Source of the DNA: Candidatus Cloacimonadota bacterium
GTDB lineage: Bacteria > Cloacimonadota > Cloacimonadia > Cloacimonadales > TCS61
DNA length: 52,928 nt
Assembly: GCA_021735645.1 (NCBI GenBank)
Contig: JAIPGP010000015.1
Coordinates: 1-52,928 of the forward strand
Reading direction: 5' to 3'
Program-made: the position numbers and the translations under genes
Notes under the pieces: model-generated
Told to the model about the DNA's origin: nothing
Databases searched by the model: none
What the model saw: the letters and a program-made list of their open reading frames with translations, nothing else
In this document: positions 38,104 through 47,412 of the stretch, one piece after another
Position numbering within the stretch: the first letter of the stretch is position 1
Layout of the letters: each line of letters begins with the position of its first letter

Positions 38104-38838
38104 TTATCTCAGTGTTAGCATTGTAAATAAAGTGAGGAGGAGTGTTACCATGATTATTATCAGGTCTATGGTATGCAGTTTATTCTCATGCAGATAGGTG
38201 CGGGTGGGGTGGAGGCGGAAGGCTCTTAGCTCCAGGGAGATGGAGCGGTTTTGGATATTATGGATAGCATTTGCCAGGACAGGGATTAGGAGAGTTCTGA
38301 AAGCTTTCAGGCGTTGTTTGAGAGTAAGTTTTTTTAAAGAGATACTGCGGAGTGCGAGAGTTTCCATTTTATTATCAAAAATGCTTTTAAATACTGGCAG
38401 GAAATGGATGGTGGCTGCTACTATGAAGGCAATTTCGTAGGGGAACTTCCAGGCATTGAGAGCTATCAGATAGTCCTGAAAAGGATAATCCATCAGTAAC
38501 CCGGCAACCAGGATGATCAGAAAGAAGCGAAGTGAGGAGGCAAGGGCATAATTTATTCCTATATCAGTGATTCGCAGGATACTATACTCAAATATGACAT
38601 TTCCAGTACGTCTAAATAGCAATTGAAAGATGAATATCACCAGGATGATCCTGCCGATACTTGACAGGCGGTGAAGCAGTTTTTGCCGTGCTTTGGCAGA
38701 AGGTCGCAGGATAAAAAGCAGTGCTATTGTAACAGCCAGCAAAACAATTTGCACCAGTGGTTGTTGATATATAACTGAGATACCCGTAAGGCAGATAACA
38801 ATAACAAGAATTGTACGGAGATTAATTTTGAATGACAT
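38104..38838 (-). CDS. ECF transporter T component (EcfT/CbiQ family)
   Basis: 244 residues: five or six membrane helices and a long cytosolic loop with the coupling motif SLELRAFRL near residues 202-210, matching the Ala-Arg-type motifs by which EcfT grips the ATPases. It also has the conserved FIVAATIHFLPVF segment. In ECF transporters T links the two ATPases to the substrate-binding S component in the inner membrane. It is the last gene of the operon, 4 bases after the TonB-receptor gene. S, A and A' are all in the same run, so this is a dedicated (group I) system. Confidence 0.85.
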   Translation of the reverse strand: MSFKINLRTILVIVICLTGISVIYQQPLVQIVLLAVTIALLFILRPSAKARQKLLHRLSSIGRIILVIFIFQLLFRRTGNVIFEYSILRITDIGINYALASSLRFFLIILVAGLLMDYPFQDYLIALNAWKFPYEIAFIVAATIHFLPVFKSIFDNKMETLALRSISLKKLTLKQRLKAFRTLLIPVLANAIHNIQNRSISLELRAFRLHPTRTYLHENKLHTIDLIIIMVTLLLTLFTMLTLR

Positions 38839-38842
38839 ACAA

Positions 38843-40753
38843 TTATATACTGGCTTCCAGCGTCAGGATAATATCTCTACCGGGTTGCGGGTAGCCATAT
38901 TTTTCCTGATAGTTCTGGTCAAAGACGTTTTCTATACCGAGTTTAATCTTGAAATGGGAGAATGATTTATTCAAGTAGAAATTATTCAGCCAGTAGGAGG
39001 GTAGGATTTCATCTTCGCTGTGAGAAATATCATGCCAGGAAGCTTCATATACGAAGAAGATGTCATAGGGCAACATTACCTTTTCAGTAATATTAACAAT
39101 ATTCTGAGGGTTTTCATAAAGCGGTCTATCACTATCCTTTGTATATTGCAAATAGCGATACTGGATAACATATTCCCAGAGAAATTTACATTTAAAGGCA
39201 GCTTCCAGTCCATAACTATTCACCTGATCAATATTTTCATATTGGGATGATTGAGTATAATATACTTTTTCGACCAGATTTTCTATGGCATTATAAAATA
39301 CAGCAACATTCAGGTTTCCGGCAAGTGAACCGGCTGTGAAGGGCTGCAGTGTAGAAATTTCATATTTCCAGGCACTTTCTTCTTTCAGGTCAGGATTCCC
39401 GGAAGAAGAAGAAAAGAGTTCATGTAATCCAGGATAATTAACGTTGTTAGAAACCGCCAGGTTATACTGAGCAAAGCGTTCTGATTCGTAAAACAGTCCT
39501 GCCGAGGGTTCAAGGTGGTATATCCAGTTATTACGGTGGTTTTGATGAAAGATAGAGAAACCGGAGCCGGCAGAAAGCGTGAATTTATTCAGCCTGAATT
39601 CCATCTGGCAAAAGGGGTTTTGCAGTAATTGCCAGTTAGAAGTCCAATCCTTATATTCATCGTTATCTTTTCTATTAAATGATTGATATTCGGCACGGTA
39701 GCCGGCTATGAGGTCGTAATTATTCATTTTGAGGGTAAATTTATTAATAGTGCCGAAATTATAGCTAAGCAGTCTGGAATTGAGATCAAGATCAGTATCA
39801 TCAGGTTGTCTGTAGGTATGATAAATATCATCATAGCCATCAAAGTACAGGTTCATATTCAAGGTTTTATTCCAGTCCATCTGCAGATCGTTTTGCATAC
39901 TGAACTGATACCTTTTCCAGTCTACAAATTTACGGAAAATATCCGAAGGATAGCTGGGATTATAAAATTCATTGGTAGCTACTGGTATTTGTTTTTCATC
40001 CATCCAGGTATAAGAAGCGGAGAGACCAACACGGTGCAAATCAGAGAAATCGTAATTTAAACGTCCCTGCAGGTCATACTGTCTTTGGGCTGAATGGTCT
40101 CTGATACCGCCGTTTTCCAGAGTGACGGGGACAAAATCCTCCGAGAGCGGGAAGCCAATGGTATTATATCTGGCAAAAGAGAGCAGGTAATCCCAGTTCG
40201 TGAATTTATGAGATGAAGAGAGCTGGAAGCGGTTGGTGTTATTGCGTTGAATTTGTAAAACACCTTTCAGCCAGGTTGAATTATCAGGAGCAGCAGAAAC
40301 GATATTTACTACTCCACCCATAGTATTACTACCATAGAGTGCAGACGCCGGACCCTTGATAACCTGAATTTCCTTAATTTCCGAGACTGGCAGTGTGCTC
40401 AAATCAACGGCATCAAAATAACCTCCGCCTATCGGTCTGCCATCGATCATGATCATCACATCTTCTTTGGCAAAGCCACGAATACTAAGATCTGACCCGC
40501 TTTTACCTCCCTTGCTGATATTAATACCGGGTAGATCAGTGACTACATCAGCCATATTTGTAGCGCTGTTGATAGTGCGGTCATCTATGATCTTGATGTC
40601 TATTTTTCCTATTGCCTGAGTAGGTTTCTCAGCTGTAATACTTGCCCCTTCCAGGATATATTTGGGTTCCGGATGTGTTTTCAGGCTGTCAGGTTCGGTC
40701 GCTAACAGGTTGCAGGAATATATAATTACCAGGGTCAATAATATTTTTCTCAT
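38843..40753 (-). CDS. TonB-dependent outer-membrane receptor
   Basis: 636 residues, close to BtuB size. A signal peptide is followed by a plug domain (about 35-160) with NMADVVTDLPGINISKGGKSGSDLSIRGF, VMIMIDGRPIGGGYFDAVDL, IKEIQVIKGPASALYGSNTMGGVVNIVS, all hallmark segments, then a 22-strand type barrel with PGLHELFSSSSGNPDLKEESAWKYE and a C-terminal IENVFDQNYQEKYGYPQPGR. GAGGAAAGA precedes the ATG. It overlaps the preceding ATPase gene by 4 bases. TonB-driven import of a scarce, large nutrient (cofactor, corrinoid, haem or metal chelate) is expected; the substrate is not readable. Confidence 0.93.
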   Translation of the reverse strand: MRKILLTLVIIYSCNLLATEPDSLKTHPEPKYILEGASITAEKPTQAIGKIDIKIIDDRTINSATNMADVVTDLPGINISKGGKSGSDLSIRGFAKEDVMIMIDGRPIGGGYFDAVDLSTLPVSEIKEIQVIKGPASALYGSNTMGGVVNIVSAAPDNSTWLKGVLQIQRNNTNRFQLSSSHKFTNWDYLLSFARYNTIGFPLSEDFVPVTLENGGIRDHSAQRQYDLQGRLNYDFSDLHRVGLSASYTWMDEKQIPVATNEFYNPSYPSDIFRKFVDWKRYQFSMQNDLQMDWNKTLNMNLYFDGYDDIYHTYRQPDDTDLDLNSRLLSYNFGTINKFTLKMNNYDLIAGYRAEYQSFNRKDNDEYKDWTSNWQLLQNPFCQMEFRLNKFTLSAGSGFSIFHQNHRNNWIYHLEPSAGLFYESERFAQYNLAVSNNVNYPGLHELFSSSSGNPDLKEESAWKYEISTLQPFTAGSLAGNLNVAVFYNAIENLVEKVYYTQSSQYENIDQVNSYGLEAAFKCKFLWEYVIQYRYLQYTKDSDRPLYENPQNIVNITEKVMLPYDIFFVYEASWHDISHSEDEILPSYWLNNFYLNKSFSHFKIKLGIENVFDQNYQEKYGYPQPGRDIILTLEASI

Positions 40754-41406
40754 TCTTTCCTCAAAATTATGGACTTATTCCTAATTTCATATATTTTATC
40801 TGAGATATCAGCAAAGAGATCATATCTGTGAGAAATGATCAATATTCCCCTATGTCTGCTTTGCTCAGCTATCAGGTTTTTTAATTTAATTTGCCGAATA
40901 ATATCCAGTCCCGAGGCAGGTTCATCCAGCAGCCAGACTTTCTGGCGGTTCAAAAGAAGTGCAGCCAGTACAGCACGTTGACGCTGACCTTCAGAAAGTT
41001 CCCAGACGGGTTTATCCTGGAGATCCAGCAGGTCAAAATAATTCAGAGCAACTTCAATAGCTGCTTCATCTGGCTCATTTAATTCAAAACCTGCCTGCCA
41101 GATCACCAGATCAAGCATGGAAGTGGCAGCCAGAAGATTCAAAGATGAAGATTGTTTAAGATAAGTGATCTCGGAAGCTATGGAAATAGTATCAGCAGTA
41201 GATATCTCCAGATCATTGAAAAGCAGATTGCCGCTATATCCTGATTGCAAAGCAAGAAGTAATCGGCAGAATGTAGATTTCCCAGACCCATTTTCTCCGC
41301 TGAGCAAAGTTACTCCACTCAGGGAGATATCAAGATCAATATTCCGGAAAATATCCTTTTCCGGGAAAGAAAATGAGAAGTTTTGCAGGCGGATCAGATC
41401 TTTCAT
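40750..41406 (-). CDS. ECF transporter ATP-binding subunit A
   Basis: 218 residues, a single ABC ATPase domain. Walker A is SGENGSGKST, signature LSEGQRQRAVLAALLL, Walker B VWLLDEPASGLD, and the switch His is in ILIISHRYD. It pairs with the ATPase encoded just upstream and drives the T and S components. Overlaps both neighbours by 4 bases. Confidence 0.9.
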   Translation of the reverse strand: MKDLIRLQNFSFSFPEKDIFRNIDLDISLSGVTLLSGENGSGKSTFCRLLLALQSGYSGNLLFNDLEISTADTISIASEITYLKQSSSLNLLAATSMLDLVIWQAGFELNEPDEAAIEVALNYFDLLDLQDKPVWELSEGQRQRAVLAALLLNRQKVWLLDEPASGLDIIRQIKLKNLIAEQSRHRGILIISHRYDLFADISDKIYEIRNKSIILRKE

Positions 41407-42059
41407 GTTTTGCTCAGGTTTATAACGTATTCTGCCAGCTCAATCAGTCTGGAATGATGGTCTGCAATAATCACTGCCTTTCCTGAAGCGGCATATTCCC
41501 TGATCAATTTGATCACTGCTGCTAATTTAACTTCATCAAGACCACTGGATATCTCATCGAGTAAGAGGATTGCAGGCTGAAGAGTATGAATAGCAGCTAA
41601 AGCCACCAGTTTCTGCTGACCGAAGGAAAGCTTATCAGTATCAGCAAATCTTAGGGGATAAATATTCAGCAATCTGAGTGCTTGATCGATCCGCTGCTCA
41701 ATTTCTGGTACGCTAAGGCACAGGTTTTCTGGTGCAAAAGCGAGTTCCTGCTCTACTGTGGGAAAAAATATCTGGTCTTCCGGCTGCTGCATCACCAGTG
41801 AGATTATAGTAGAAAGTTGTGACAGATCAGCATTTTTATGGTTAATTCCTGCCAGACTAATATTTCCTGCTATCTCACCCTGCCTGTGCCGTGGAATTAT
41901 GCCAGCCAGCAGATAAAGCAGAGAGGTTTTTCCTGAACCGTTATTTCCAGAAATAGCCATTATTTGCCCTGCTGAAAGGGAAAAATTTAGCCCCGAAAAC
42001 AGCCAGTCCTCTTGATCAGGATATCTAAAACTAAGGTCTTCCACCTGCAGAAGTTTCAT
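41403..42059 (-). CDS. ECF transporter ATP-binding subunit A'
   Basis: 218 residues, the second ABC ATPase. Walker A is SGNNGSGKTS, signature LSFGQQKLVALAA, Walker B ILLLDEISSGLD, then VIIADHHSRLIE with the switch His. The signature and the D-E-I-S-S-G-L-D form are typical of EcfA-type ATPases rather than of ABC exporters. The gene starts 4 bases inside the gene before it. Confidence 0.9.
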   Translation of the reverse strand: MKLLQVEDLSFRYPDQEDWLFSGLNFSLSAGQIMAISGNNGSGKTSLLYLLAGIIPRHRQGEIAGNISLAGINHKNADLSQLSTIISLVMQQPEDQIFFPTVEQELAFAPENLCLSVPEIEQRIDQALRLLNIYPLRFADTDKLSFGQQKLVALAAIHTLQPAILLLDEISSGLDEVKLAAVIKLIREYAASGKAVIIADHHSRLIELAEYVINLSKT

Positions 42060-42472
42060 TTTAATTCAATCTGAGTAATGTATTTAAGCCATCTCTGATG
42101 AAAATCATCTGTGGGAATGATCAATCTCAGGTATGACTCTTCACCATTACTGATCATTGATAAATAAAGCGAATCAAGTTCCTCTTTATCAATAGTAAGC
42201 TGGGCATTATCGCGGGAAATAAATGTCAGTTTTGCCCATTTTTGCTCAGTTTTCAAGAAATATGAAACCGGTACAACCTGCTCAGATTTCCCCTGCCCGA
42301 TTGGTAAAACCTGTATTTCATCTGCCGGAAAACTGCTTATTTCTATCTTCTCCTGGTTAGGCAGAATGATGGTCAATAATACTTCAGGAGCCGCTTTATC
42401 ACGATTAATTAGCCAGACAAGACCAAACATCACAATGACTAATGCAAAAAGAATAATGAGTATATTTTTCAT
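42056..42472 (-). CDS. Small membrane-anchored protein of the uptake operon
   Basis: 138 residues. A single N-terminal membrane helix (NILIILFALVIVMFGLVWLI) is followed by an exported domain. Its end, EESYLRLIIPTDDFHQRWLKYITQIEL, resembles the final part of the sulfite-oxidase/molybdopterin-binding fold, where R/L-hydrophobic-IP leads to W-hydrophobic-x-x-I. The same ending is seen in the 43094 protein. No catalytic Cys is visible, so it may be a binding module. Role in the operon unknown. Confidence 0.65.
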   Translation of the reverse strand: MKNILIILFALVIVMFGLVWLINRDKAAPEVLLTIILPNQEKIEISSFPADEIQVLPIGQGKSEQVVPVSYFLKTEQKWAKLTFISRDNAQLTIDKEELDSLYLSMISNGEESYLRLIIPTDDFHQRWLKYITQIELK

Positions 42473-43089
42473 GGTTTCTCTTGAGAAAGTTTTTTTATCT
42501 GTTTAGCATCATACCAGAACATGCAGCCATCAAAACGAAATTTATCAAACTCAAAGGATGTCTGCACTTCAGTATCGTCACTAAAAACTATTGTCATTAC
42601 CCCTGAAAGGTCATTATTTTTCAATTCTTCACCCTTCTTATACTTCTCTACCTGATAGCCGTTTTTGGCAGAAGTGGCAAGATAATTGAAGTCCTTCATT
42701 ATCCAGGTGAAAGGAGTATATATTTGCGGATAATTGATTATATTATCCACTTCAAGCTGAATATCCCAGGGATTTTGCCACAGGGCAATTTCCGTCAAAT
42801 CCTTGATGTTGCACACTGGCGGCAGACTGGTGCTCACAGAACTCCATCCGGGATCATCATAATGCAAAAGTATCAGCTCAAAGGCAGATTTTTCGATCAA
42901 GGCAGCAGTTCCATCGGAGCCGATTAAAAGCGCTGCATCTGCCCTGATACCCTTATCAGTCAGTAGTTCAGCAAAACATCCCCTGGTTTCGATTACTTCT
43001 GGTGAAATATTACCGCTCAAGGGCAAAGGATTAGATATCAGCAGCAAATTACTGCCTAGAACGAGGATTATTAGATAGTATTTTATCAT
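42469..43089 (-). CDS. Exported protein of the uptake operon
   Basis: 206 residues with an N-terminal signal (YYLIILVLGSNLLLISNPLPL). The middle, LLIGSDGTAALIEKSAFELILLHYDDPGWSSVS, has the G-S-D-G pattern seen in molybdopterin-fold and related binding domains. It ends in a Lys/Gln-rich tail. Three cysteines are spread through the mature part. No family recognised with confidence. Overlaps the next gene by 4 bases. Confidence 0.6.
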   Translation of the reverse strand: MIKYYLIILVLGSNLLLISNPLPLSGNISPEVIETRGCFAELLTDKGIRADAALLIGSDGTAALIEKSAFELILLHYDDPGWSSVSTSLPPVCNIKDLTEIALWQNPWDIQLEVDNIINYPQIYTPFTWIMKDFNYLATSAKNGYQVEKYKKGEELKNNDLSGVMTIVFSDDTEVQTSFEFDKFRFDGCMFWYDAKQIKKLSQEKP

Positions 43090-43093
43090 CTTT

Positions 43094-43924
43094 TCAGAAA
43101 TCTATTGCTCTAAATTCTTTCGGGACAGTCCACCAGCCAGTTAGAGTTTTAACTTCCTCCCAGCTCGAAAATTGTGCTCGAAAGATAATAGCAATATCAC
43201 CTTTCTGTATATAGGCAATATCTTTGATCCACATACCGCCTGGCATTTGAGGACTCTGCAGGATGTATCCGCTTTCGCTTTTCACCAGCACTGCCTTTGC
43301 CAGGTAATCATTATAGTCCAGCAGATGCGAAATGCCGTCTCGACCTATTAACTGATATTGCCCCTGCATTGAAGGCATCACCATTTGCAAAAGTTGTGGC
43401 AGATAATATCCTTCCACATCAACAAAAGGTTCAGGATTTTGGATTAACTTAAAATCATCCAGATAGCCTTCAGCAAATTGAAACATACTGGGCAGATCAA
43501 GATTTGCCTGAGCCTCTGTCTCGATCAAAGAAATATTGCTTATCCAGTACATTCCGGGCATATCAGGAATTATCAGTCTATTACCTTCAAGTTTTTCTCC
43601 ATTCAGATAAAGAGCGATCAAAGATTCATGACTGCTGATCTCTGCTTTGGTCAATCGCACCAGGTAATTATCATCAGAGCTGAATTTCACCAGGTCATAA
43701 TCGGCAAGGTTATACTTTTTCAGCAAATCTGTGAGTTTAACTCCTTTCCAGGTCCGCGTAAAAATTTCACCGTCTTTTTCTTTTTCTGTTACCAGCTCAG
43801 ATGGAACTGCCATATATAATGCTTCAACATCAAGATTATTGCTTTGTTCTGAAGTCTTTAATGTAAGTGCCATAAGAGAAGAAAATATGCCCAGCAATAT
43901 TATAAGAAAGGTCAGTCTTTTCAT
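43094..43924 (-). CDS. Exported protein with two sulfite-oxidase-fold-like repeats
   Basis: 276 residues from the ATG at 43924 (AGGAG five bases ahead), preferred to the GTG two codons upstream. After a signal peptide there are two related halves. The first, TWKGVKLTDLLKKYNLADYDLVKFSSDDNYLVRLTKAEI and RLIIPDMPGMYWISNISLIE, has the pattern of the oxidoreductase molybdopterin-binding domain. The second repeats it (DVEGYYLPQLLQMV, QLIGRDGISHLLDYNDYLA, QMPGGMWIKDIAYIQ). No cofactor-ligand Cys is visible. It may bind a ligand on its way from the receptor to the ECF S component (inference). Confidence 0.7.
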   Translation of the reverse strand: MKRLTFLIILLGIFSSLMALTLKTSEQSNNLDVEALYMAVPSELVTEKEKDGEIFTRTWKGVKLTDLLKKYNLADYDLVKFSSDDNYLVRLTKAEISSHESLIALYLNGEKLEGNRLIIPDMPGMYWISNISLIETEAQANLDLPSMFQFAEGYLDDFKLIQNPEPFVDVEGYYLPQLLQMVMPSMQGQYQLIGRDGISHLLDYNDYLAKAVLVKSESGYILQSPQMPGGMWIKDIAYIQKGDIAIIFRAQFSSWEEVKTLTGWWTVPKEFRAIDF

Positions 43925-43932
43925 AATCACTC

Positions 43933-44469
43933 CTAAATCAGTCTGTATTGTTTGAGTTCCTGATATATCTTATGTGATAATATTCCGCCAATGATCCCGC
44001 TGACAGCTGCTGCTGTAAGTGACAAAAGGGTTGGTAACAGCGGTAATCTCATCACCAGCCAGGCTACGATCATCGCTCCTGTCATATTGGCGGAAGCGCA
44101 TAATATTACATGAGTGACTGGAGATTCGGGATTATGAAGTATCAGCCATACAAACTCAAGAACCAGAGCCGGAAGGGTATAACTGATCAGCGATACTGCA
44201 CCGTGAGAACCGAAGTACCCTAGTCCCACCATCACCAGAGCTTGGGCTATACCCATTAGCAAAGCTGCCCCACTTTTGCGCACCAGGCAGATGAGCAGCA
44301 CCATCCACAGCAGATATAATCCTCCTGCTAATGAACCGCCCGGAATCAATAAAGGAGCAGAGATAAGATGCACCAGGGGCGTGACTACCGGTTTGATAGC
44401 CAGCCCCAGTGCACTCATTACTGCTATATATAATAAATCTCGAGATGTAAATTTTGCCAGATATGACAT
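43933..44469 (-). CDS. ECF transporter substrate-binding S component-like protein
   Basis: 178 residues from the ATG at 44469; an upstream TTG at 44493 would overlap the preceding gene. There are about five to six membrane helices and an N-terminal TSRDLLYIAVMSALGLAIKPVVTPLVHLISAPLLIPGG that looks like ECF S components. No water-soluble domain. The substrate specificity group is not clear from motifs. It is followed by three exported proteins and then A', A, the TonB receptor and T. Confidence 0.75.
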   Translation of the reverse strand: MSYLAKFTSRDLLYIAVMSALGLAIKPVVTPLVHLISAPLLIPGGSLAGGLYLLWMVLLICLVRKSGAALLMGIAQALVMVGLGYFGSHGAVSLISYTLPALVLEFVWLILHNPESPVTHVILCASANMTGAMIVAWLVMRLPLLPTLLSLTAAAVSGIIGGILSHKIYQELKQYRLI

Positions 44470-44473
44470 CAGA

Positions 44474-45292
44474 TTATTCCCAGACTTCTCCAATATAACC
44501 GGTTAAATCTTCCGGGAAACTAAATGACCAGTCAGCAGAATTTTCATCAGCCATAGCTGGATTGATGTATTCTTCTATTTCTTCATATGCGCCAAATATC
44601 TGCGTACTCTGCAGGAACTTGAATTTCTTTTTGGAACCCGGCAGATCAAGACCCGGGAAGATTGTTTTTTGAGAATCAATCAGCCAGTAACCAGCCTCAA
44701 TTTCTTCTGGATAATAAGTCTGCTGATAGCCGTCTATTGCGGTGAAAGTTACAGAGTCCAGCACTGTTACATGCTCAGGAATAAAGTCTGCCAGTGGTAT
44801 GGCATTTTCCATCCCTCCATCATAATTCTCCACCTGAACCACATCCATACCATTAAATTCAAAAACTACACTCAGAGTATCATTGATATTTGTTCTCACA
44901 CCCCGATAAACGTGAACTGTATTGATCCATTTCACGTTATAAGCTCCCACTCCCAGAGAATCATATTGCGGGAATCTTATCCTGTTCTTGTCCAAAGGAA
45001 TATAAACTCCCTGTGCCATGTCATTCCAGTTCAGGTCATCATAACCGGCTGGACGCGGGCTGTAGCCATCATCTGCTACTGACCAGAAATAAAACAGATT
45101 ACGCCAGTCATAGTCATCGTCATCATCATGGATGATCTGGTCAGCAAAAATCTCTGCTGGTACAAACTGGTCTAAAGAATAAGCATAAATAATCTCGGGT
45201 TCCACTAAATTGTCATTGTTGTCATCTTCACTGCAAGCGGTAAATAATAAAATAAAAGCTACCAGCAGTCCTAATAGTATGATTTTTTTCAT
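44474..45292 (-). CDS. Lipoprotein heading the uptake operon
   Basis: 272 residues. A lipoprotein signal with lipobox LFTAC-S (Cys20) is followed by the acidic linker EDDNND. A run of five Asp in IHDDDDDYDWRN (about residues 54-65) could bind metal. Later parts (SVTFTAIDGYQQTYYPEEIEAGYWLI, GSKKKFKFLQSTQIFG) faintly echo the molybdopterin-fold pattern of the other exported proteins. AGGAGGAAGT precedes the ATG. It is the first gene of the run, so it probably captures the ligand at the membrane. No family name recognised. Confidence 0.7.
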   Translation of the reverse strand: MKKIILLGLLVAFILLFTACSEDDNNDNLVEPEIIYAYSLDQFVPAEIFADQIIHDDDDDYDWRNLFYFWSVADDGYSPRPAGYDDLNWNDMAQGVYIPLDKNRIRFPQYDSLGVGAYNVKWINTVHVYRGVRTNINDTLSVVFEFNGMDVVQVENYDGGMENAIPLADFIPEHVTVLDSVTFTAIDGYQQTYYPEEIEAGYWLIDSQKTIFPGLDLPGSKKKFKFLQSTQIFGAYEEIEEYINPAMADENSADWSFSFPEDLTGYIGEVWE

Positions 45293-45300
45293 ACTTCCTC

Positions 45301-45470
45301 CTAACTTTTTTATTTATTTAGTTAGAAAGGGGAGTCCTAATATAGTCATCCCACCTTTCCAAGCACGGGAGGCATAAAAGTTTCCCTTTATACCCATTGG
45401 CAGAGCTCCTTGCCTTACGGTTTAGAAGGTTCTGCTCGGTGTTTACCAGACAAAAATCTCACATTACGTT
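45301..45470 (-). promoter_or_regulatory. Possibly structured leader of the uptake operon
   Basis: The stretch upstream of the lipoprotein gene can fold in several ways. GGGA at 45367-45370 can pair either with TCCC at 45349-45352 or with TCCC at 45383-45386, so the two stems exclude each other. ATAAA/TTTAT, GGCA/TGCC and CCTT/AAGG pairs are also present, and CTAAC/GTTAG (45301-45325) ends next to the ribosome site. It does not match TPP, cobalamin, FMN, SAM or lysine riboswitches as I recall them. It may be a new leader RNA or only a dispersed repeat. The remainder to 45593 shows nothing. Confidence 0.35.
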
Positions 45471-46248: not shown

Positions 46249-47412
46249 ATGAAAAAAGATATAACAATATTCATGTTTATAGATGCCATGGGCTGGGAAG
46301 TATTAAAAGGGCGGACTTTTCTGGAAGAATTGCTGCCCTACCGTCAGCCGGTAGGCATGCAGTTTGGCTATTCCTGTACAGCGATTCCCACGATTTTGAC
46401 AGGAGAGCGACCTGCAGAGCACAAGCATTTGAGTTTTTACTATTACAATCCGGAAGATTCACCCTTTAAAATGTTCAAGAATTTAGGTTTGCATTATTTG
46501 CCGTCAGTTATCATGGATCGATGGCGGGTACGGCATCAACTCTCAAAAATCGTAAAAAAGATGTATAATTTCACCGGTTATTTTGAGATGTATGCCATGC
46601 CTTTTAACCGGCTGCATTATTTTGATTATATAGAGAAGACGGATTTATTTGTAGCGGGTGGACTTTCACCTACCCCTAATCTGGCAGACCTGCTGGTGAA
46701 GAACAATGTACCTCATTCTATCAGCAACTGGCGATTAACTGAAGAGCAGAATATAGAAGCCATGATAGATCAGGTAAAGCAGGGTGATATCCGGTTTGCC
46801 TTTTTATATACTGCAGCTATGGACGGTTTATTGCATCGAGTAACTAAAGATGGCAAAGAGATACAGGAGAAACTGGACTGGTATGCGGGCAAGGTGGAAA
46901 AGCTGGTGAGTGCAATCAAGGAACATTATGAGGACTATTCACTGTTTTTGATCAGCGATCACGGAATGACAACTTTGACGGGTACTCAGGATGTGAAGGG
47001 AAAAATTGAGGGGCTTGGTCTGGAATTTGGCAAAGATTATGTGGCAGTGTATGATTCCACTATGGCGAGATTCTGGTATTTTAATGACAAAGCGAGGACA
47101 ATTATCCTGGAAGCACTGGCAGAAATCCCGCAATCATCTATCCTGGATGAGGAGTATTTACGGAAGCATGGAGTGTGGTTTGAAGATAAGTTGTTCGGCG
47201 AGACGTATCTTTTGATGGAGCCGGGAGTTCAGATAGAACCTTGCGATATGGGCAGGAAGGCATTAGCTGGGATGCATGGATTTGCCCCGGAGCATCCGGA
47301 TTCTATGGCAGCTTTTTTGGGGAGTGAACCGATAAATGATCAGGAAATCAACTGGGTAGGTGACTATTTCAAGGTAATGAAAAGCAGGATAGAAAAGATA
47401 GCGGCAGAGTAA
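46249..47412 (+). CDS. Type I phosphodiesterase/alkaline-phosphatase-superfamily hydrolase
   Basis: 387 residues. The two-metal site residues are visible: Asp12 in MFIDAMGW, nucleophile Thr44 in SCTAIPTILTGERP, Asp and His in YTAAMDGLLHR, Asp-His in ISDHGM, and His in GMHGF. No signal peptide, so cytosolic. Members hydrolyse phosphomonoesters, phosphodiesters or nucleotide pyrophosphates; this one keeps the Asp-x-x-x-His of nucleotide pyrophosphatases. The substrate is unknown. It has its own promoter and converges with the Lon gene pair. Confidence 0.85.
   Translation: MKKDITIFMFIDAMGWEVLKGRTFLEELLPYRQPVGMQFGYSCTAIPTILTGERPAEHKHLSFYYYNPEDSPFKMFKNLGLHYLPSVIMDRWRVRHQLSKIVKKMYNFTGYFEMYAMPFNRLHYFDYIEKTDLFVAGGLSPTPNLADLLVKNNVPHSISNWRLTEEQNIEAMIDQVKQGDIRFAFLYTAAMDGLLHRVTKDGKEIQEKLDWYAGKVEKLVSAIKEHYEDYSLFLISDHGMTTLTGTQDVKGKIEGLGLEFGKDYVAVYDSTMARFWYFNDKARTIILEALAEIPQSSILDEEYLRKHGVWFEDKLFGETYLLMEPGVQIEPCDMGRKALAGMHGFAPEHPDSMAAFLGSEPINDQEINWVGDYFKVMKSRIEKIAAE

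Follow-up and report, generated by a model that had tools for sequence, protein, structure and literature searches.

Cobalamin uptake through BtuB and an ATP-binding cassette (ABC) or energy-coupling factor (ECF) transporter combines a TonB-dependent receptor, a carrier and ATP-driven import with a cobalamin riboswitch. The molybdenum or tungsten (Mo/W) cofactor is generally thought to be made by cells for themselves. Here we describe an operon from Candidatus Cloacimonadota bacterium (contig JAIPGP010000015.1 of assembly GCA_021735645.1, the 52,928 nucleotides (nt) of which were analyzed as a whole and are referred to as the window) that resembles the cobalamin system in offering what appears to be a receptor–carrier–ATP route for a costly metal cofactor under that cofactor's riboswitch, but differs in having carriers of the sulfite-oxidase fold in place of BtuF, a molybdenum cofactor (Moco) riboswitch and another predicted substrate. 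As a kind it is known – TonB/ECF cofactor uptake: what is new is the substrate and the carriers. The riboswitch, the enzymes that use the cofactor, the undetected synthesis genes, the pterin-fold carriers, a MobA-like protein and the uptake machinery together point to a salvage system for a Mo/W pyranopterin cofactor (molybdopterin with bound W or Mo, or something closely related), which we regard as probable. A narrower claim is that the operon is an outer-to-inner importer of the finished, metal-loaded cofactor and the first such importer in bacteria; here we consider the case evenly balanced, with the absence of MoeA favoring the metal-loaded form.

Other described systems share parts of this arrangement. 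ECF transporters of the YkoE type (PF09819) likewise combine an S component of this family with a pair of ATPases and a T protein, but the operon has a Moco rather than a thiamine riboswitch and adds outer-membrane parts. PruR (PMC13259868; papers are cited here by accession) has, like the operon's carriers, a sulfite-oxidase fold without the Mo-binding Cys in which the pterin Tyr and Trp are kept. However, PruR is a protein of about 170 amino acids (aa) paired with the signaling proteins DcpA and DTB, whereas the operon has tandem or multiple domains among transport genes, and an extra Arg in common with sulfite dehydrogenases. The transporters TupABC and WtpABC, accompanied by moa/moe genes (PMC2408646; relatives G004 and G030 in our sample), show the same riboswitch class and economy of cofactor, but in their case the oxyanion is imported and the cofactor made, while the operon genomes are without detected MoaC and MoeA. 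C. elegans uses Moco from its diet that other organisms have made (PMC9793310, which also connects the uptake of Moco from outside with Moco as a therapy); this, however, is an animal whose transport genes are unknown, and the operon is a candidate for a bacterial route.

The operon occupies the minus strand from 45292 to 38104 as nine open reading frames (ORFs) with intergenic gaps of -20 to +4 nt. Its parts, and the two elements that precede it, are:

45336..45453, minus strand: Moco/tungsten-cofactor riboswitch aptamer, RF01055 (65.3 bits against a gathering score of 36; model positions 1-135)
45297..45329, minus strand: predicted hairpin over the AGGAGG ribosome-binding site of the first gene, a possible expression platform
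44474..45292, minus strand: exported lipoprotein, 272 aa, with a PruR/sulfite-oxidase-like domain at about residues 130-235 (Cys20 in 18 of 18 homologues)
43933..44493, minus strand: ECF S component, 186 aa (PF09819, 8.6e-12), with a TTG start where homologues suggest ATG at 44469
43094..43930, minus strand: exported protein of 278 aa, candidate pterin-cofactor carrier with the sulfite-oxidase/PruR fold and no Cys
42469..43089, minus strand: exported protein of 206 aa, which several relatives carry as a fusion with a nucleotide-pyrophosphatase-like domain
42056..42472, minus strand: protein of 138 aa, exported or membrane-anchored, related to the 278-aa protein over the N-terminal half of the latter
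41403..42059, minus strand: ECF ATPase A (PF00005 over cut-off)
40750..41406, minus strand: ECF ATPase A' (PF00005 over cut-off)
38843..40753, minus strand: TonB-dependent outer-membrane receptor, 636 aa, distantly BtuB-like (Plug PF07715, 1.8e-23)
38104..38838, minus strand: ECF T component, CbiQ family (PF02361, 3.5e-16)

The ORFs and their Pfam matches bear out the run recognized in the initial annotation (TonB receptor, ECF S, A, A' and T, a lipoprotein and three exported proteins). The ECF set is complete, with S (PF09819), T (PF02361) and both ATPases (PF00005) each over cut-off, and the plug domain of the receptor scores 83.6 bits against a cut-off of 23.9. The lipoprotein carries the lipobox LFTAC, with Cys20 as the lipidation residue; the 278-aa protein matches PF00174 (Oxidored_molyb) at 34.7 bits (cut-off 24), the 206-aa and 138-aa proteins have no Pfam match over cut-off, and a profile comparison of the S component matched zero solved chains.

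The aptamer, which the interval first annotated (38104-45292) leaves out, was the sole over-threshold match in an Rfam scan of the whole window and lies 43 nt upstream of the lipoprotein gene, the first of the operon, on the same strand. The search for riboswitches before homologous operons that had been suggested as a check thus returned RF01055 at this operon and at those of relatives. The aptamer is complete except for the P3 segment, which is deleted in the alignment: this is the mark of the tungsten-cofactor class. P3 is absent in 58 of 176 Moco RNAs according to Regulski et al. 2008 (PMC2408646), who report tungsten-cofactor genes in 17 of 19 organisms with P3-less RNAs and propose the tungsten cofactor as the ligand of such RNAs. 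Among our riboswitches (30 of 40 rows were aligned, and P3 was called from that alignment) it is absent in 29 of 30; the lone P3-like hairpin, at G007:C70:9115-9260, may sense the molybdenum form. The hairpin over the ribosome-binding site, predicted from a 131-nt fold (-36.7 kcal/mol, z -3.8), fits a possible translational off-switch.

A predicted structure of the 278-aa protein (predicted local distance difference test (pLDDT) 88.5), compared by VIA, matched PruR 7KOM with Z 16.0 (2.2 A over 117 residues), neopterin-bound PruR 7RKB with Z 14.9 and sulfite oxidase 3HBG with Z 15.9; by sequence its profile matched SorA (E 1e-4) and PruR (E 2e-3). For the lipoprotein (pLDDT of the model 91) VIA likewise ranked PruR first, with Z 10.0 and 2.6 A across 103 residues. 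Foldseek on the lipoprotein gave no E below 0.001 and is insufficient by itself, so its fold is assigned from VIA-align and profile comparison. Both predicted folds are therefore PruR-like, and not the unrelated folds that would have spoken against the initial annotation. Profile comparison placed the 138-aa protein close to the 278-aa family (probability 98.9, E 2e-17) and the 206-aa protein weakly so (probability 18): the proposed sulfite-oxidase pattern without the catalytic Cys is thus borne out in three of the four exported proteins (278-aa, 138-aa and lipoprotein) and is weak in the fourth, of 206 aa.

The 278-aa protein has zero Cys, and any Cys column is common to at most 2 of 20 homologues. 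Tyr104 and Trp160, named as pterin contacts of PruR in PMC13259868, align with Y89 and W129, and PruR Asn102 aligns with D87, each of the three being conserved in 20 of 20 (PruR positions were read across by eye, by way of two PruR homologues encoded on plasmids). R118 (20 of 20) aligns with the sulfite dehydrogenase stretch RLVVP..WVK, as do R116 and K130 of the 138-aa family (18 of 18). Residues of this stretch presumably contact the cofactor in sulfite oxidase. Two identities were rejected for the 278-aa protein: PruR itself, the neighbors being transport genes with no DcpA/DTB pairing, and a molybdoenzyme of the sulfite oxidase type, the Mo-ligating Cys being missing.

In nine loci (L080, L088, L091, L092, L093, L097, L098, L113 and L117) the slot of the 206-aa protein is taken by a protein of 420-457 aa with an extra C-terminal domain, identified in L088 (G010) as a type I phosphodiesterase/nucleotide pyrophosphatase (PF01663, 1e-12); L088 alone was scanned, the other eight being judged from the alignment, and L093 looks degenerate. 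Such a domain could cleave the pyrophosphate of molybdopterin guanine or cytosine dinucleotide. The window's own 206-aa protein is without it. Near the operon (46249-47412, plus strand) stands a 387-aa protein, by eye of the alkaline-phosphatase/phosphodiesterase superfamily, the kind of domain that relatives of the operon have attached in the 206-aa slot.

The genome to which the window belongs (3.77 Mb, 151 contigs, about 95% complete) encodes users of the cofactor: two AFOR_N (AOR-type) proteins, one directly after a second riboswitch, and a selenocysteine formate dehydrogenase (in-frame TGA) adjoining a formate transporter and a MobA-like protein (PF12804 over cut-off, MobA equivalog models below theirs). 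Family searches that detected MoaC, MoeA and MoaE each in 11 of 14 control genomes found none of the three here (MoaA was not searched as a family). With AOR and formate dehydrogenase present and these synthesis proteins not found, the genome has the profile of a cofactor auxotroph. The same pattern extends to relatives: among 40 genomes (this one and relatives, our main sample) AFOR_N is found in 30, MoaC in 3, MoeA in 2 and MoaE in 0, and among 87 genomes of the phylum (completeness limit 85%) 2 have MoaC and 51 a member of the 278-aa family, and not one genome has both. If a cofactor user is defined by an AFOR_N protein or by a PF00384 match below 1e-20, then 33 of the 40 genomes are users: 26 have an operon part, 3 have MoaC and 4 have neither (G006, G009, G022 and G037, of 73-82% completeness), while a single one of the 7 non-users (G019) has the operon. 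The association of use with operon or MoaC (29/33 vs 1/7) gives p 3e-4 in a Fisher test, and that with the operon alone p 3e-3, values that serve as a guide only.

The MoaC genomes G004 and G030 carry tungstate transporter genes (TupA in G004, WtpA/WtpB in G030) with MoeA-MoaA-MoaC, the riboswitch preceding the transporter, and both S and the 278-aa protein are missing from them; the third, G016 (61% complete), yielded neither riboswitch nor MoeA. The clusters of MoeA, MoaA and MoaC in G030 (L107) and G004 (L108) also hold, by eye, MOSC- and MogA-like genes, with MoaE undetected genome-wide; the Moco locus of Caldithrix is similar (PMC5317091).

Across the 40 genomes the 278-aa protein is present in 23, S in 22 and the riboswitch in 24, and the gene order riboswitch-lipoprotein-S-278-206-138-A-A'-receptor-T recurs. 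Where the 278-aa gene is present, 16 of the 23 genomes have a same-strand riboswitch just upstream (counting G023, whose riboswitch at 33.7 bits is below the family cut-off), a contig end cuts 3 (G002, from the genus of the window, G008 and G014), and 4 have none there (G019, G028, G032 and G039). Three of these four (G028, G032 and G039) have a riboswitch elsewhere, before a lipoprotein-receptor pair, and G028 has a further one before an S-...-138-A-A'-T set; in G019 no riboswitch was found despite the operon. The operon had seemed missing from G001 and G027 until a receptor search revealed 138-A-A'-receptor-T at contig edges. Sorted by position, the 40 riboswitch rows comprise 26 before the operon, whole or split, 7 before AOR, 2 before WtpABC or TupABC-MoeA-MoaA-MoaC, 4 before aldehyde dehydrogenases and 1 before a hydrogenase-like gene. 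Loci of the 278-aa family come from Cloacimonadota in 42 of 43 cases; the one other is titled Armatimonadetes (L133) and is most likely a mislabelled Cloacimonadota. An Rfam scan of 30 of these 43 loci gave an upstream same-strand riboswitch in 10, a downstream one in 1 and none in 19 (several cut by a contig end); 11 of the 13 left out appear already used, L158 and L159 being unscanned. A diverged paralogue of the 278-aa protein (L101:5951-6856), in divergent orientation, adjoins a riboswitch-lipoprotein-receptor unit in the genus of G032, and G040-G043 have second matches to the 278-aa family too.

From these parts we infer the following path. The TonB receptor and the lipoprotein would bring the cofactor through the outer membrane; in the periplasm it would be held and shielded by the cysteine-free proteins of sulfite-oxidase/PruR fold, and in several relatives the fused nucleotide-pyrophosphatase-like domain would cut dinucleotide forms to release GMP or CMP. 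The ECF transporter (S, A, A' and T) would then move the cofactor inward, where AOR could use it directly and the MobA-like protein could convert it to the guanine dinucleotide for formate dehydrogenase; once enough cofactor is present inside, the riboswitch would fold and the hairpin hide the first ribosome-binding site. The initial annotation had likewise envisaged a cofactor-like nutrient passed from receptor to S component by proteins of the sulfite-oxidase fold, with which our data agree, although binding and passing are here predictions. No substrate already assigned to homologous operons was found in the literature; nor was any bacterial importer of the Mo/W cofactor, in a search with most subscription papers and all preprints outside its scope. 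One paper that shares vocabulary with the topic, PMC13119186, concerns cobalt. The operon supplies concrete genes for a bacterial import route and a cysteine-free carrier family. If the narrower claim of a metal-loaded importer is correct, then the cofactor would be a vitamin for most of a phylum that has lost its synthesis and uses what neighbors release, with some of these bacteria trimming dinucleotide forms in the periplasm. A cofactor thought too fragile for sharing would be a traded good in anaerobic communities.

TonB receptors import metal chelates, which counts toward a different possibility: that the operon imports a metal (tungstate, molybdate or a metallophore complex) and not the cofactor. 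Moco riboswitches control molybdate and tungstate transporters too (PMC2408646), as before TupA in G004 and WtpA/WtpB in G030. However, with MoaC, MoaE and MoeA undetected there is no detected route by which the metal could be used, both relatives with a tungstate ABC transporter have the MoaC and MoeA but not the S and 278-aa protein, and the fold of the exported proteins is of pterin-binding type; metal import thus seems very unlikely. Import of a metal-free precursor (cyclic pyranopterin monophosphate or molybdopterin), with the metal inserted by unknown enzymes, accords with the resemblance of the carriers to PruR, a binder of metal-free pterins, and with the MoaE-less relatives, which show that non-standard steps occur in the phylum. 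Yet MoeA, which inserts the metal, was not found in the operon genomes and is detected in 2 of the 3 MoaC genomes, and we consider a precursor unlikely. The last candidate is another vitamin-like compound (a simple tetrahydropterin, a thiamine precursor or cobalamin) to which the riboswitch is linked indirectly: Pfam describes the family of S, PF09819, which also includes YkoE, as one of cobalt transport, and the receptor bears a distant resemblance to BtuB. Set against this candidate, RF01055 alone was found in the window, 26 of the 40 Moco riboswitches of relatives precede operon parts, the receptor falls far short of the NCBIfam BtuB equivalog cut-offs (106.5 bits vs 836, 109.6 vs 599.7), and the neighbors of the operon, unlike those of PruR, are not DcpA or DTB: such a substrate is very unlikely.

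Several observations weigh against salvage of the cofactor. Free cofactor is highly sensitive to oxidation (PMC9571131), so the imported form may be protein-bound or derived; and according to PMC13259868 the truncated site of PruR probably cannot accommodate Moco, which means that a PruR-like fold is not by itself evidence of Moco binding. The strong-PF00384 cut-off and the Fisher groups were set post hoc, and the genomes are related. With 3 MoaC genomes, the non-overlap of MoaC and operon arises by chance 7% of the time: mutual exclusion alone is not significant. G019 carries the operon without AOR or a strong PF00384 match. The window's genome is in 151 contigs and about 95% complete, and the search for missing genes in it covered MoaC, MoeA and MoaE, with the MoaA family and Mo/W transporters outside that search; the absence of MoaE is weak evidence alone because MoaC-bearing relatives are also without it.

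A conserved frame of about 1,120-1,180 aa with weak PF00384 similarity is found in G007, G012, G019, G020, G028 and others; it is not confined to genomes that have AOR or a strong PF00384 match, and is perhaps a cofactor-free ActB-like protein. The Moco riboswitches at L105 (G032:C1:1350080), L103 (G039), L169 (G025) and L171 (G017) precede aldehyde dehydrogenases of about 545 aa, that of G032 being an L-glutamate gamma-semialdehyde dehydrogenase (NCBIfam TIGR01236); the family was scanned in G032 alone, and the other three were recognized by length and N-terminal sequence. Possibly these enzymes replace AOR, with no need of the cofactor themselves, at times of cofactor shortage. Another Moco riboswitch, L114 (G031:C93:7979-8101), is followed at a short distance by a gene matching [FeFe] hydrogenase group A6 at 801 bits.

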